Shown here: one piece after another, positions 38,079 through 43,916 of the stretch
Layout of the letters: every line of letters begins with the position of its first letter
How positions within the stretch are numbered: position 1 is the first letter of the stretch
From: Candidatus Altimarinota bacterium
Lineage (GTDB): Bacteria > Patescibacteriota > Gracilibacteria > BD1-5 > UBA6164
DNA length: 46,823 nucleotides
Assembly: GCA_025210615.1 (NCBI GenBank)
Contig: JAOARJ010000003.1
Location: 1 to 46,823, forward strand
Direction: 5' to 3'
The notes under the pieces: generated by a model
Told to the model about the DNA's origin: nothing
Seen by the model: only the letters and a program-made list of their open reading frames with translations
Database searches by the model: none
Program-made: the position numbers and the translations under genes

Positions 38079-38880
38079 TTATTTCAGATTTTCAAAATGC
38101 TTTTGAACTTTATCTAAATTACAGATGTTTTTTTCTGCTCATTTCTCTTTCAAATAATTTATTATAGACTCTCAAAATCAAATCTCATTTATCAAACTCA
38201 TCGTTCAAGAAAAATTAATATCATTTATCCAACTAGCAAACTGCATAATTTCACTTTTTATCCTCTCTAGCACAACATTTTCAGTCCAAAAAATCTGACA
38301 ATATTTTTTCACTAATTCATCAATCTTCATAATCATATTTCATCCATTTAGAAAAATTTTCTGCAATTTTCATTTTATCAAAAACTGCAAACTCTATATT
38401 TTCTAATTTATCAGCGTCCCTTACTAATTTTATTATAATTTTTGCTTCTTCTTGCTTTTTTTTATTTAATTTTTTAAACTCTTTTTCATCATCAATATTT
38501 TCCAAAAAACTATCATGTTTATTATGATATTTTGCTGATAATAATATTCAAGTGTCTTCTATTCATTCTTGCTTTAAAATATTATAACTACCAGTTCAAT
38601 GGTCAAATTCTTTATTTTTTAATAATCTTTTTCAATCTGTTTAATAAAATCTTCCCACGTCATGTAACAAAGCTCAAATAATCAATCTTTCTTTTAATTC
38701 TTCTGATAATCTCCCAAGCTCTGGTGTTCTAGCTATAACTCTATAAGCACATTGTAATACTCAATAAGAATGTCTTATTTTATGATAGAAAAAGTCTTCT
38801 ATATCCGGCGTTCTATCTACTTTAGCAAACTGCTTTTCATAATGAGCTTGCAAAATTTCTATCGCATTATTTATATTCAT
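38079..38880 (-). pseudogene. Broken HD-domain phosphohydrolase gene
   Basis: The reading frame from ATG 38880 encodes an HD-type phosphohydrolase start: 'KIRHSYGVLQCAYRVIARTP' and 'ERLIIGALLHDVGRFY' (metal-binding His and HD). A TAA at 38641-38643 follows directly, where the family continues with 'TDGKRLLKNKEFDHGTGSYN', still in frame. Further on are 'YHNKHDSFLE' and 'IKLVRDADKLENIEF' (final Asp). Near 38320-38336 the homologous reading moves to another frame, giving 'DELVKKYCQIFWTENVVLER' to the TAA at 38079. One nonsense change (CAA to TAA would restore Gln) and one frameshift point to decay, unless they are assembly errors. Confidence 0.75.
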
Positions 38881-38887
38881 AATTTAT

Positions 38888-39436
38888 TTATAATTTTACC
38901 TTATAAAATTCGTTATAAAACGGTGCTATTGCGGCTTTACTCGCTTCTTCAAATTCTCACTTTCTTGTAAACATTCAATCAGTCCAAGCTCACATGCTTC
39001 CTTGTTTATTACTAATATTCACAATTCATGATAACTCGCTCATTATAGGTCATAAATCTCATCAATTTAATAATTTTTTCATTATCTCTTCTGGTACTTC
39101 TAAAAATTGAGAAAATCCATAATGTCATTTTCAAGCATTATTTTCAGCATATACCACTCATCATAAATATCATTTTCAAACTATTTGTTGCACTCATCAT
39201 TCTATTCAGAAATAATAATCAGCATCTGTTACTTTTTTTCTAAGGTTATCAACTCTTCATTTAGCTCAATCCATTATTTCTTGCATTGTCATCGGCATAT
39301 CAGACACTCAAGAATCAACTCAATGCGCAACATATTCAATATTATCTAAATTATCTTTAAAATAAGGACAATTATTTATCATATCTTGAATCCCTTGTAT
39401 TTTTGGCTCCTTTGTACTTGTTATTGCTATTTTCAT
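38888..39436 (-). CDS. YjjX/DUF84-family inosine/xanthosine triphosphatase
   Basis: A 182-residue enzyme of the non-canonical purine NTP phosphatase family. Opening 'KIAITSTKEPKIQGIQDMIN' is the substrate loop (S/T-x-N-x-x-K position). Then 'YVAHGVDSGVSDMPMTMQEI', 'DGAKGRVDNLRKK' and 'ADYYFGIEGGVQQIV' (G-x-E-G-G) are diagnostic of DUF84. 'WTDGMFTRKGEFEEASKAAI' follows near the end. It would hydrolyse ITP/XTP to the diphosphate or monophosphate, removing deaminated purines. Its start overlaps the stop of the YgjV-like gene by 10 bases, supporting cotranscription. Confidence 0.9.
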
Positions 39437-40050
39437 AATTTTTTATTATTAAATTTTAAATTATTTTTATCCAATTCAACTAAAACTGGTTCTAGTTCTA
39501 GATTATTTGCTAACTTTATTTTATCCCTATATAATCTAAATATTGTTACAAAATGTAAAATTAGTATTATTGTTTCATTTATCGTTCATCAAATAGATTG
39601 ATTTAAAATATGATAACTTAGCCACAATATTGTAGTTCATAACAAGCCAAGTCTAAAAGATAATCATTTTCAATTTAAGAAAAAGAATAGATATAAATTT
39701 CATATTGAAGCTAATATTGCAAAAATAGAAATTAAACTTTCAAAATTATAAACTGCATTAATTCAGTATAATATAAAAAATATTGAAAACAGCTTTATAT
39801 TTTTGGGAAATTTTAATGCTGCAAATCATCTTATCATATCTATTAATCATATGACAACTGCTAAAACTAATCACATTAATAAAAAATGAATAACCCAAAA
39901 GATTGCAGCTATAGCCTGAAAAAATATTAATTTCTTATCATCTTTATTAATTACTGATATTACTTCTATCGACAACGCTATTAAACCAAAAATTTGTGCA
40001 ATAGAATTAGCATTAAATACAGATAATATGTTATTTATAAGCTCTTGCAT
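39427..40050 (-). CDS. YgjV-like inner membrane protein (paralogue A)
   Basis: A 207-residue membrane protein with about six hydrophobic segments. Start 'QELINNILSVFNANSIAQIF' and 'IEVISVINKDDKKLIFFQAI' with 'DMIRGFAALKFPKN' match the Imp-YgjV family; function of the family is unknown. The C-terminus is hydrophilic ('LANNLELEPVLVELDKNN'). It shares 'AQ...NKxDK', 'MIRGF/MLRxFA' and 'HILNQSI' with the two later paralogues, so the three arose by duplication. Position: between RdgB and DUF84 enzymes. Confidence 0.8.
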
Positions 40051-40061
40051 AAAAATTATTT

Positions 40062-40634
40062 TTATAAATTACTAATTAATTTTAATAGTCACTTCTTAGT
40101 CTTCTTAATATCTTCCATTTGATTAAATTCTTCTTTAATTTCAACTGCAGTAGATGGCCATCAAGGTTTCATCTCTCTCAAAATCTGTTTTCAAAGTATA
40201 ATTCTAGCTCTACTTTCCTGGTAAAAAATATTATTTTCATTTACATATAAACACCTTACAAAAGGAAAACTTCAATGTACAATATCACCTTCAATATTTT
40301 TTACTTCCTTGAAATAATAATTAAGCCATTGCAAATCATCTACTCATTCTGGTAATTCTCCTCCCCATCTTCTAGCCATAACTCATGGCTCTCATCATAA
40401 TTCTTCTATTTCAAATCCAGCATCATCTCACAAGGCAGGAATACCAAATTCCGCGCTGTAATATCTAGCTTTTATTAAAGCATTTTTTTCTACTGTTTTT
40501 CAATCCTCTACAGGCTCTTCTACTTTTTTAAAATCAGATAAAAAATATAATTTTACATCTACTAAACTAGATAATAAATCTTTATACATATCTATTTTAG
40601 CCTTATTTCATATCGCTATTAATAATTTTTTCAT
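40062..40634 (-). CDS. rdgB: XTP/dITP diphosphatase (RdgB/HAM1)
   Basis: A 190-residue HAM1-family pyrophosphatase that cleaves (d)ITP and XTP to monophosphates and so prevents their use in nucleic acids. The N-terminal 'LLIAIGNKAKIDMYKDLL' is the substrate-binding loop. 'EDGKTVEKNALIKARYYSAE' and 'GIPALGDDAGFEIEELGGEP' followed by 'GVMARRWGG' are the family core with the catalytic Asp-Asp. The second half is somewhat different from E. coli RdgB but the central motifs are complete. It starts 4 bases after the upstream YgjV gene stop. Confidence 0.93.
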
Positions 40635-40637
40635 AAT

Positions 40638-41195
40638 TTAATTTTTATTAATTTCTAATTTTTTATCTTTATAAAGTCTAGTTAATGTTATAAAATGAAA
40701 TGTCATCATAAAAGTCTGACTAATAATACTTCAAATAGATTGCGTTGCAAATATATGATATAACATCCAAACACTTCATCATACTAAAAATCATATTCTA
40801 AATTTTATTCAAGTTCAATAGAAAAAAAACATTGTATACAAAATAATCAGAGAACCGATAATTCATAATATTGAATAAATATCTTTATATCACAAGTATC
40901 AATTTATTAAATATATAACTAAAAAGATGAAAAATAGTTTCGTACTTTGTCAAATTTTTAAAACAATAAATCACCTAATCATATTAAGTAAAGCGACTCA
41001 CATAGGAATAAAAAATGATATCAATCAAAAATGTAAAGCCCAAAGTCATATAGAAATAGTTTGCCAATAAATAAACTTTCTATCTTCTTTAATTAAAGCA
41101 GATATAATTTGTCAAACCATAGCCACTAATCAAACTATCTGTGCAACAGGATTAGCGTTAAATACAGATATAATGTCATTTATAAATTCTTGCAT
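40638..41195 (-). CDS. YgjV-like inner membrane protein (paralogue B)
   Basis: A 185-residue polytopic membrane protein. 'QEFINDIISVFNANPVAQIV' at the N-terminus and 'LIKEDRKFIYWQTISI', 'LNMIRGFIVLKI', 'HIFATQSI' align with paralogues A and C. It lacks most of the hydrophilic tail of the others, ending 'KDKKLEINKN'. Family function unknown. Confidence 0.78.
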
Positions 41196-41200
41196 AGTTT

Positions 41201-41791
41201 TTATTTATCATTAATTTTTACTAAAACTGGTTCTAATTCCAAATTATTTTTTAATTTTACTTTATCTCTATACAATCTAAATATTGTTATAATTGTAATA
41301 ACCATCATTAAAAACTCATTTATAGCTCATCATATTGATTGATTTAACATATGATAAGTAAACCAAGAGGAAATTACAACAAGCATTGTTAACCTAAAAA
41401 TTATTCCTTTTCAAGAAAGGAAGAAAAAAGCATAACAAGCTAATAATGAAGCAAATATAGCAAACAAAGAGATATAATTTTGAAAATTAAAAATCCCATT
41501 AAGACTATATAATACAAAGAATACTAAAAAAACTTTTATGTTTTTAGAAAATTTTAATGATGCAAATCATCTAAGCATATTAAAAATTCAAATTGCAGCA
41601 GCAATATATAATCACATAAGGAAAAAATGAATAGTCCAAATTATATAAGCAAAAGATTGATACAAAATATATGTTTTGTCATTTTTATTAGACATAACTA
41701 CCATTTGAACAATAAGAGCAAATAATCACACACTTTGAGCAATAGAATTAGCATTAAATACCTCTATTATGTCATTTATTATTTCTTGCAT
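41201..41791 (-). CDS. YgjV-like inner membrane protein (paralogue C)
   Basis: A 196-residue polytopic membrane protein, closest to paralogue A: 'QEIINDIIEVFNANSIAQSV', 'MSNKNDKTYILYQSFAYII', 'IFNMLRGFASLKFSKNIKVF', 'HMLNQSI' and the tail 'LKNNLELEPVLVKINDK' shared with A. The similarity of tail and helices suggests A and C derive from a fairly recent duplication. Start ATG 41791, 17 bases after the MazG-like gene. Confidence 0.78.
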
Positions 41792-41808
41792 ATTTTAAAT
41801 TTATTATA

Positions 41809-42213
41809 TTATTTATTATATTTATTATTGTGCTCTTCTGTTAATTCTTGTTTTTGTTTTTTCTTTATTTCACTCCAATATTTTTTTCTCTCATCTAATG
41901 AAGTTTGGTCTAAATTAGCTATTCTTTCTCAAAATTTCTTTAATCATCTTTTTATAACTTTTTCTCTAGATGTTATCATTTTATCTAACTCTAATTTATT
42001 TAATAAATTTAAATACACCCATAAAACATCTGCTAATTCATCTTCCAAATAAACACTGTTATTTTCTCTAAATTCAGCTTTTACTTCTTCTATTTCTCAA
42101 GGTAAATATTTAAAATAATCTTCACTTTTTATCTTTTGTATAAATATATTTTTTTCTTGATTTTTTTCTGATAATTTGATAAATTCTTCTAATAAATTTA
42201 TTAATTTTTCCAT
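41809..42213 (-). CDS. MazG-like nucleotide pyrophosphohydrolase (copy 1)
   Basis: A 134-residue all-alpha protein. 'YLPGEIEEVKAEFRENNSVY' and 'LEDELADVLGVYLNLLNKLE' give the E-x-x-E ... E-x-x-D metal motif of the MazG/dUTPase-like alpha-NTP-PPase superfamily. The C-terminal helix ends 'QKQELTEEHNNKYNK'. Likely hydrolyses non-canonical or excess NTPs; substrate unknown. It is a paralogue of the adjacent gene at 42225-42617 and the two share the 'KQKQEL' end. Confidence 0.85.
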
Positions 42214-42224
42214 TGTTTATTAAA

Positions 42225-42617
42225 TTAATTATTATATTTTTTATTATGCTCTGCGAGTAGTTCTTGTTTTTGTTTAGACTTTATTTTATCCCAAGCTGCA
42301 TATTTTTCTTCTTCATTTTTATTATCAACTTCATTAATTCTTTGCAAGAATTTTTCATAAACTCTATTAAGCAAACTCTCTCCAGAAACTATAAGTCAAT
42401 CTTTTTCAAATTTTATAAGCAAATTCATAAAAATCCACAGTAAATCTCATAATTCATCTTCTAAGTAAATAACATTATTATCTTTTAATTCTTGCTTCGC
42501 TTCTTTTAATTCAGAATCAAAACATTCAAAATAATCTCTAGCATCCATTCATCTAAAAACATTTTTATCATTATTTTCCTTCGCTAATTTAATTAGTTTT
42601 TCAAATAATTTTTCCAT
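42225..42617 (-). CDS. MazG-like nucleotide pyrophosphohydrolase (copy 2)
   Basis: A 130-residue all-alpha protein with 'FDSELKEAKQELKDNNVIY' and 'LEDELGDLLWIFMNLLIKFE' (same metal motif as copy 1), ending 'KQKQELLAEHNKKYNN'. The two copies differ mainly in the central helices. Two tandem MazG homologues in one operon suggest different substrates (inference). Confidence 0.85.
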
Positions 42618-42623
42618 AATATT

Positions 42624-43199
42624 CTAAATATTAAAATTAAATTTTTTAAAGTTTTCTGTTTTCATCTTTGCTCTATAAAAAGCTGTTATCGTATGAGCAC
42701 AAGACACTTCTCAAGATATTATTTTTTCTTCAAATTCTTTTATCTCTGCTAATTTTACTTCTATAATTTCTCAGTCTTCTAACTCTTGCTCTTCAGTATC
42801 CTCACACTCTAAAGCTAAAAAATATTTTATTTTTCCATACATATATTTATGCATAACTGCTTCTCATAAATAAATTATTTTATCTGTTTCATATCAAGCT
42901 TCTTCTTTTAATTCTTTTTTTACCGTCTTTTCTTCATCATCTCAAAATTCAATCATTCAAGCAGGTAACGCAATATGAAATTCACCAACTCATATAAAAT
43001 ACTCTCTAATATAAATAACTTTTTTATCCTTTGTAAGTCACAATATCATCACAGCATCTGTTTCTCTATTATTATCAATATCTTTTCAAGAAATTAAATA
43101 ATTTAAACGTTTATTATTATACTCATAATCTCTACTTAACACTCTAATAAAGCCATTTTTTGCAACTATTTTTTCTGATTTTAAAATAGGTTTTTTCAT
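42624..43199 (-). CDS. Nudix hydrolase, ADP-ribose pyrophosphatase-like
   Basis: A 191-residue Nudix protein. The box is 'GMIEFGDDEKTVKKELKEEA' continuing G-Y, so G-x5-E-x7-(R to K)E-x-x-E-E-x-G. Before it 'KKVIYIREYFIGVGEFHIAL' resembles ADP-ribose/NDP-sugar pyrophosphatases, in which the box follows an R-E-x-R motif. The Arg of the box is replaced by Lys. Start ATG 43199, 13 bases after the stop of the MTH1-like gene. Confidence 0.88.
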
Positions 43200-43212
43200 A
43201 ATTTTTAAATTA

Positions 43213-43674
43213 TTATTTTATTAATTTATATTTTTCTAATCATCAATTTTCATCAAAATATATATTATACTCTACTTCCTCTCAAGCCAAAATTCTAGGT
43301 ATCCAAATTCTATCAGCACTCCACATCTTTTCATAAGGAATCTTATCTATTTCAAAAAAATATGGTTTCATCTCATCTGTTTCTTTTGGCTTATCTATAA
43401 CATTTTTTGATAAAAATATATGCGCTGTATTATTCCAATCTAAATTATTTTTAAAATGAAAATGTAATATTCAAACTTCTTTTAAATTATTAGAAACATC
43501 AAGACAAGTTTCTTCTAAAGTTTCGCGAATAGCTGTTTGAACTATATCTTCATTTCATTCTTGTTTTCCTCAAGGTCAATTTAATTTTCACTTTCAAAAT
43601 CCTCTTTTTTTCATACATAACATTATCTGATTTTTATCATTCAAAATAACTAATAAAGCTGTTTTTCTAAACAT
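43213..43674 (-). CDS. MTH1-like Nudix hydrolase (oxidised purine NTP sanitising)
   Basis: A 153-residue Nudix enzyme. The box is 'GGKQEGNEDIVQTAIRETLE' continuing E-T-C-L. The surroundings closely match human MTH1/NUDT1: 'KKRGFGKGKLNGPGGKQEGN', then 'ETDEMKPYFFEIDKIPYEKM' and 'WSADRIWIPRIL', in which the Trp-x-x-x-Asp region contacts the oxidised purine in MTH1. So it probably hydrolyses 8-oxo-dGTP or similar. It is the first gene of the operon, beginning about 12 bases after the leader terminator. The start is in a run of A and T with no Shine-Dalgarno. Confidence 0.92.
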
Positions 43675-43694: not shown

Positions 43695-43880
43695 AAACAA
43701 GAGATAAAAATCTTCTTGCTTTCGGCCCAAAAAACAGAGGAGGTACCACCTAAAGCTTATACTTAATTTATTTTGTTTACGAGAGTTTGTTCTCCGAGAA
43801 GGTCTACTAAGCCCATTATAAAAGCATTTCTTCTTCCAGCTCGCAAGGGATATTTGCTCAAGCGCTTTTCATAAAATTTA
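43695..43880 (-). promoter_or_regulatory. T-box-like riboswitch leader
   Basis: In transcript order the leader has a short 5' hairpin region with AAAAGC pairing GCUUUU; inside it GCAA-AUAUCCC-UUGC holds an AUC (Ile codon, 43849-43851) in the loop. Then 'AGUAGACC' and the T-box motif AGGUGGUACCUCC (43739-43751). UGGU would pair with a charged-free tRNA ACCA end, as for tRNA-Ile with discriminator A. GCUUU before it can pair with AAAGC (43718-43722) as an antiterminator; the same AAGC can instead pair into the terminator stem (43695-43721, CAAGA-AGAU/AUC-UCUUG) with a U-rich tail. The two folds exclude each other, the T-box logic. The specifier codon is not proven. Confidence 0.65.
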
Positions 43881-43888
43881 CACTTTTT

Positions 43889-43916
43889 ATTATATATCTA
43901 TTTTAAATTTTTGCAA
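43889..43916 (-). promoter_or_regulatory. Promoter of the ileS operon
   Basis: On the minus strand TTGCAA (43911-43916), a 16-base spacer and TATAAT (43889-43894), about 10 bases before the T-box leader. A good sigma-70 match. Confidence 0.65.

Follow-up and report, generated by a model that had tools for sequence, protein, structure and literature searches.

An Isoleucine-Specific T-Box Riboswitch Is Very Likely Encoded Ahead of an ileS Operon in a Gracilibacteria Genome

Introduction

In the genome of a Candidatus Altimarinota bacterium (Patescibacteriota, Gracilibacteria) a long same-strand operon is preceded by a leader that resembles a T-box, which raises the question whether gene expression in this member of the candidate phyla radiation (CPR) responds to tRNA and, if so, by which type of riboswitch. 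The window analysed here is the whole stretch of 46,823 nucleotides (contig JAOARJ010000003.1), and the data basis is the sequence of a metagenome-assembled genome (MAG). A sequence-only reading had suggested a T-box riboswitch in a CPR host with a recoded stop codon. The host indeed uses code 25 (UGA=Gly), and covariation, conservation in relatives and a leave-one-out model match support the riboswitch. For T-boxes in Gracilibacteria, Patescibacteria or the CPR we found no relevant open-licence paper; an earlier description elsewhere (e.g. the TBDB supplementary lists) is not excluded. Judged from sequence, the leader is very likely an isoleucine-specific, transcription-attenuating T-box riboswitch, for which tRNA binding, switching and its direction are inferred, without experiment.

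Leader Anatomy and Operon

The promoter, T-box, competing antiterminator and terminator, and U-tract before the first gene were all found on the minus strand where the sequence-only reading had placed them (Table 1). Promoter-like sites are frequent by chance in the AT-rich DNA of the window, and the transcription start at about 43882 is inferred.

Table 1. Features of the T-box leader and its operon in the window
Feature	Position	Strand	Basis or remark
Whole T-box leader RNA	about 43882-43686	minus	~195 nt, upstream of 12-gene same-strand operon
Promoter-like TTGCAA-N16-TATAAT	43916-43889	minus	10/12 consensus positions
Ultrashort Stem I	43866-43838	minus	sequence and helix covariation in relatives
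Specifier codon AUC (Ile), loop positions 3-5	43851-43849	minus	loop codon of relatives fits downstream synthetase
Stem II GGAAG/CUUCU	43837-43797	minus	sequence and relatives
Stem IIA, CGGAG with CUCUCG, F-box-like 3' arm	43796-43780	minus	variants in relatives
Antiterminator	43756-43718	minus	sequence; A1 and A2 covary in relatives
T-box sequence AGGUGGUACC	43751-43742	minus	read from sequence
T-box bulge UGGUACC, 7 nt, between A1 and A2	43748-43742	minus	sequence
Terminator hairpin and U-tract	43721-43686	minus	sequence; U-tract at 43697-43686
Nudix hydrolase, first operon gene	43674-43213	minus	first ATG at 43674
Same-strand genes between first Nudix and ileS	43199-37394	minus	in this order: second Nudix, two MazG-like, three Imp-YgjV (membrane), Ham1, DUF84 NTPase, HD, unknown membrane protein
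ileS, isoleucyl-tRNA synthetase, 1792 aa	37391-32013	minus	TIGR00392 918.8 bits; Pfam
Terminator-like hairpin after ileS	32004-31977	minus	terminator scan

Stem I measures only 29 nt and consists of a C-stem (AGC/GCU), a K-turn (GCU bulge, UGA opposite GA), an NC-stem (GCAA/UUGC) and a 7-nt loop, AUAUCCC. The earlier suggestion that this short 5' hairpin with AUC in its loop resembles an ultrashort ileS Stem I holds. The base after the specifier is C, whereas A is usual. The two sides of Stem II, AAGAA and AGUAGA, are S-turn-like; in relatives all five pairs of the helix (5/5) show two-sided changes, and the AAGAA/UAGA positions are nearly invariant. Stem IIA appears in relatives as CGGAG/CUCCG, CGAAG/CUUCG or CAGAG/CUCUG. 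Pairing of its loop with downstream bases to form Stem IIB (UUG/CAA or GUU/AAC) is possible in some leaders and absent in others, and inspection by eye gave nothing consistent.

The antiterminator, GCUUUAGG[UGGUACC]UCC...GGGCCGAAAGC, is formed by the helices A1, GCUUU(A)GG/CC(G)AAAGC, and A2, UCC/GGG, and this fold has an energy of -4.7 kcal/mol. The terminator hairpin (about 43721-43695) reads AAGCAAGA-AGAU/AUCU-CUUGUUU. Since the AAAGC strand (43722-43718) is common to the 3' arm of A1 and the 5' arm of the terminator, the two structures are mutually exclusive. The terminator of the window is AT-rich and weak (dG -5.0, z +0.5), and a consensus terminator scan did not list it.

The long operon that had been recognised behind the T-box comprises 12 same-strand genes and ends in ileS. 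The earlier reader did not know of this ileS, and it is what an AUC specifier predicts; ileS is thus the predicted cognate target. The extent of the operon is inferred, and the hairpin behind ileS is likely its end. In the window eleven other genes and 6.3 kb separate the leader from ileS, and in most relatives the distance ranges from some tens of bases to a few thousand. The HD gene (38079-38880, minus strand) is broken, with a stop after 79 aa followed by another open stretch.

Some of these features would also agree with decay, in this genome, of a leader derived from a T-box, leaving a weak terminator and mainly constitutive expression: the terminator is weak, the base after the specifier is C and not A, the HD gene is broken and many genes lie between leader and ileS. 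All base-pairing elements, the bulge, the specifier and the discriminator complementarity are however intact in the window leader, and its covariance model score of 124 bits is inside the range of its relatives. Decay seems unlikely to us compared with an intact T-box.

Conservation and Covariation

Homologous leaders were found by blastn in 35/59 related genomes (36/60 with the own genome). Some of these matches are short, and many stop just past the T-box (query position 160, corresponding to 43741). We retrieved and read 33 homologous leaders from related genomes. A leave-one-out covariance model, built from 22 relatives with the window excluded, recovered the leader with 113.8 bits (E=7e-25), and the second-best match of this model within the window had E=0.86. 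When the proposed structure was imposed on 24 leaders, 94% of the cells were paired (standard pairs) and two-sided changes occurred at 22/33 pairs. The number of cells with two-sided changes was 125, against 36.6 +/- 5.4 in shuffles, and the pairing signal collapsed once the partners were slid. With 99 leaders in a model-fitted alignment the corresponding numbers were 786 and 204. The permutation and shuffle tests were done without correction for shared descent. The covariation in related genomes that the sequence-only reading had named as a check is thus strong for the helices, including the AUC hairpin and the antiterminator.

As a control, we used contigs that were chosen across all of GTDB only by an exact T-box 19-mer. 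This gave 23 contigs, of which the 18 from Gracilibacteria or Patescibacteria scored at least 78.9 bits. The remaining ones (Acinetobacter, Bacteroidia and others) had no model match (E 0.095 or worse).

Two other approaches failed to detect the T-box in the window. The minimum-energy fold of the whole leader was not more stable than shuffles (z +1.1) and lacked the T-box structure, which a search by energy alone would therefore miss. The Rfam search advised by the sequence-only reading was negative too, since RF00230 had no match in the window, neither at the gathering cut-off nor up to E=10. In 60 relatives no RF00230 match exceeded the curated cut-off of 93 bits. This cut-off is operational and does not define a biological feature. 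Below it, RF00230 gave full-length matches to distant leaders of the family at the same places (L203, 45.8 bits, E=7e-7; L199; L190; L205). Because RF00230 aligns to these distant leaders over its full length and at the same coordinates, we regard the leader family as homologous to T-boxes.

In the set of leaders, 107/113 antiterminators are followed by a U-tract, and the stretch ahead of the U-tract has a median folding z of -2.25 (131 leaders). Both observations bear on the possibility that the leader is a translational T-box like that of actinobacterial ileS, in which the alternative hairpin blocks access to the ribosome-binding site. The ultrashort K-turn Stem I, Stem II and Stem IIA/B, which are as in Nocardia and Mycobacterium ileS (PMC7583486, PMC10651847), would fit such a mode of action, but a U-tract after the alternative hairpin speaks for termination of transcription. 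We consider translational control quite improbable for this family and prefer transcription attenuation.

Specifier Codon, Discriminator and Downstream Gene

In relatives, leaders with AUC in the Stem I loop precede ileS or ilvA and leaders with AAC or GAC precede aspS. Across the phylum the same loop carries GUC ahead of valS, UCC ahead of serS and ACC ahead of thrS. A script that accepted AUC for ilvA and thrC found that the NNC loop codon fits the downstream enzyme in 133/143 leaders. In 2000 permutations the mean was 70 and the maximum 88. For the distant families alone the codon fits the gene in 31/38 leaders, against a permutation maximum of 23. Inspection by eye indicated that the 10 misses of the script are mostly due to a wrong choice of hairpin. 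Two AUC leaders in the class precede threonine-synthase-like genes, which are linked to isoleucine only via the pathway. Despite the uncorrected shared descent, a joint change of codon and gene across families is difficult to explain in another way.

The variable T-box base follows the same pattern: with few exceptions it is U where the loop has AUC and C where the loop has AAC or GAC. The genome's own tRNA-Ile(GAU) has A73 as discriminator (3' end ACCC-A-CCA) and its tRNA-Asn and tRNA-Asp have G73. In the window we observe complementarity of the specifier to the anticodon of this tRNA-Ile and of the variable base, U at 43745, to its A73. The UGGA of a thrS leader likewise fits U73 of tRNA-Thr in other genomes. 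By these comparisons the variable base would usually pair with the discriminator of the cognate tRNA. Exceptions are a valS leader with UGGC (L227, genome G442), although tRNA-Val has A73, and an ileS leader with UGGA (L232, genome G340), although tRNA-Ile has A73. A G73 in tRNA-Val and a U73 in tRNA-Ile are thereby ruled out as causes of the odd T-box bases in G442 and G340, respectively. In two further leaders, L128 and L199, the expected C is replaced by U, and a G-U wobble remains possible.

Several aspS genes are located under T-boxes with the asparagine codon AAC (L019, L022, L036, L126, L131 and others), which suggests that the AspRS may also charge tRNA-Asn. In distant families the aspS enzyme is annotated as aspartate--tRNA(Asn) ligase.

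A plain attenuator without tRNA sensing, in which a T-box-like word happens to accompany an intrinsic terminator, could be argued from the absence of an Rfam signal in the window and from an AT-rich leader with a free fold no better than shuffles. Such an attenuator is nevertheless contradicted by a loop codon and a T-box base that shift with the downstream synthetase, and the leader is conserved and covarying in many genera and matched by the leave-one-out model, which leaves very little room for it. Synthetase genes can be autoregulated, and binding of IleRS or another protein to a leader that is a T-box in resemblance only is thus conceivable, yet a protein site would not explain the same architecture with a matching codon at ileS, valS, aspS, serS, thrS and the non-synthetase gene ilvA, and we regard it as extremely unlikely.

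Proposed Mechanism

For the isoleucine T-box, tRNA binding and the switch are inferred, and the direction of the switch is taken from the known T-box mechanism (PMC7583486). During synthesis of the leader, the loop of the K-turn Stem I would pair through its AUC with the GAU anticodon of tRNA-Ile, and Stem II and Stem IIA/B would support contact with the tRNA from the side. If the tRNA-Ile is uncharged, its ACCA end is expected to pair with UGGU of the bulge and to stabilise the A1/A2 antiterminator. With the antiterminator held, the polymerase would continue into the 12-gene operon ending in ileS. If the tRNA-Ile is charged, the AAAGC strand would instead go into the terminator hairpin and transcription would end at the U-tract.

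Comparison with Known T-Box Classes

The leader in the window has a bulge between A1 and A2, a cognate specifier, complementarity to the discriminator and an exclusive (weak) terminator, and with these it meets the sequence-based criteria for a T-box. It shares with class I (RF00230, Bacillus-type) the A1/A2 antiterminator, the 7-nt UGGNACC bulge, the competing terminator, the specifier and an amino-acid-related operon. In contrast to class I, it is below the 93-bit cut-off and has no long Stem I with the elbow-binding IDTM. With a Stem I of 29 nt it was therefore not filed as class I.

In the ileS T-boxes of Actinobacteria (class II; N. farcinica, M. tuberculosis) Stem I is short, has a K-turn and carries an AUC specifier (NNC), whereas Stem II has an S-turn and Stem IIA/B an F-box (CCGUCA) (PMC7583486, PMC10651847). 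The window resembles them in the ultrashort K-turn Stem I with its AUC (NNC) specifier, the S-turn of Stem II, IIA/B (with the IIB pseudoknot not demonstrated) and the ileS target. The differences are that a terminator and U-tract in the family of the window take the place of the sequestrator that covers the ribosome-binding site, that Stem III is absent or tiny in most Gracilibacteria, that the phylum is another one, and that the form found in Gracilibacteria and the phylum also serves Val, Asn/Asp, Ser and Thr. Since the U-tract follows the alternative hairpin in nearly all leaders, the family was not filed as class II. On present sequence data the leader is best described as a compact, putatively transcriptional T-box variant. 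This variant joins an ultrashort Stem I, a form described chiefly for the translational ileS T-boxes of Actinobacteria, to a transcription terminator. This runs against the generalisation in a review that a transcriptional T-box must have an elbow-binding module if it is to capture the tRNA ahead of the arrival of the polymerase at the terminator (PMC7583486).

Distribution and Evolutionary Meaning

A covariance model trained in one order and applied with strict filters (R1) matched 86/288 sampled genomes of the class and 84/380 sampled genomes of the phylum, and these counts are probably lower bounds. We read 39 of the phylum-level matches, and nearly all of them are ahead of a synthetase gene. 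The surveys consulted assign T-boxes to few phyla. Whether T-boxes arose in Firmicutes or were lost from other bacteria was left undecided by Wels et al. (2008), who also noted that, among T-boxes, only that of ileS occurs in every T-box bacterium (PMC2494555). About one fifth of the Patescibacteria genomes sampled here have T-boxes that the standard cut-off overlooks, which makes the question of T-box origin testable. A possible but tentative reading, which we rather doubt, is that T-boxes are an ancestral, vertically inherited CPR regulator. Their form would be compact and transcriptional, combining Stem II with an ultrashort Stem I and making no elbow contact, and it would have branched out to cover Ile, Val, Asn/Asp, Ser and Thr at the least, with a second form for Gly; the long Stem I of Firmicutes would be a later elaboration. 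The T-boxes further point to a response to amino-acid starvation in tiny, often host-dependent cells, here with a recoded UGA.

A Second T-Box Type Ahead of glyS

Weak RF00230 matches in relatives led to separate leaders of glyS, which have a GGA hairpin and UGGAACC. The own genome also contains a glyS T-box (contig C4, 55651-55757; locus L333; E=3e-13 with a glyS leader model), and those of relatives are at L254-L264. Its GGA hairpin is ultrashort, a Stem II is not evident, glyS is downstream, and the genome's own tRNA-Gly(UCC) has U73 as discriminator. It is like the known glyS/glyQS T-boxes without Stem II in its GGA hairpin, the lack of an evident Stem II, UGGAACC and the downstream glyS, but differs from them by the ultrashort hairpin in place of a long Stem I and by its host, in which UGA is read as Gly, the same amino acid.

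IleRS Insertions and Neighbouring Hydrolases

In the window and in further Gracilibacteria (L335, L336, L337, L339 and L340) IleRS is 1242-1792 aa long and contains whole inserted domains; the enzyme of other genomes has ~1050 aa. The inserts are located inside or beside the synthetase core and include histidine phosphatase domains (three in the window and at least one in each of the others) and serine-hydrolase-like domains, and additionally Nudix in L335 and L337 and DUF559 in L337. Nudix, MazG, Ham1 and DUF84 proteins, all nucleotide-cleaning hydrolases, are found repeatedly, in different genera, in the interval from the Ile T-box to ileS (window 38888-43674, minus strand; L011, L013, L014, L020, L033, L138, L149), and some of them are of the same domain kinds as those inserted in IleRS.
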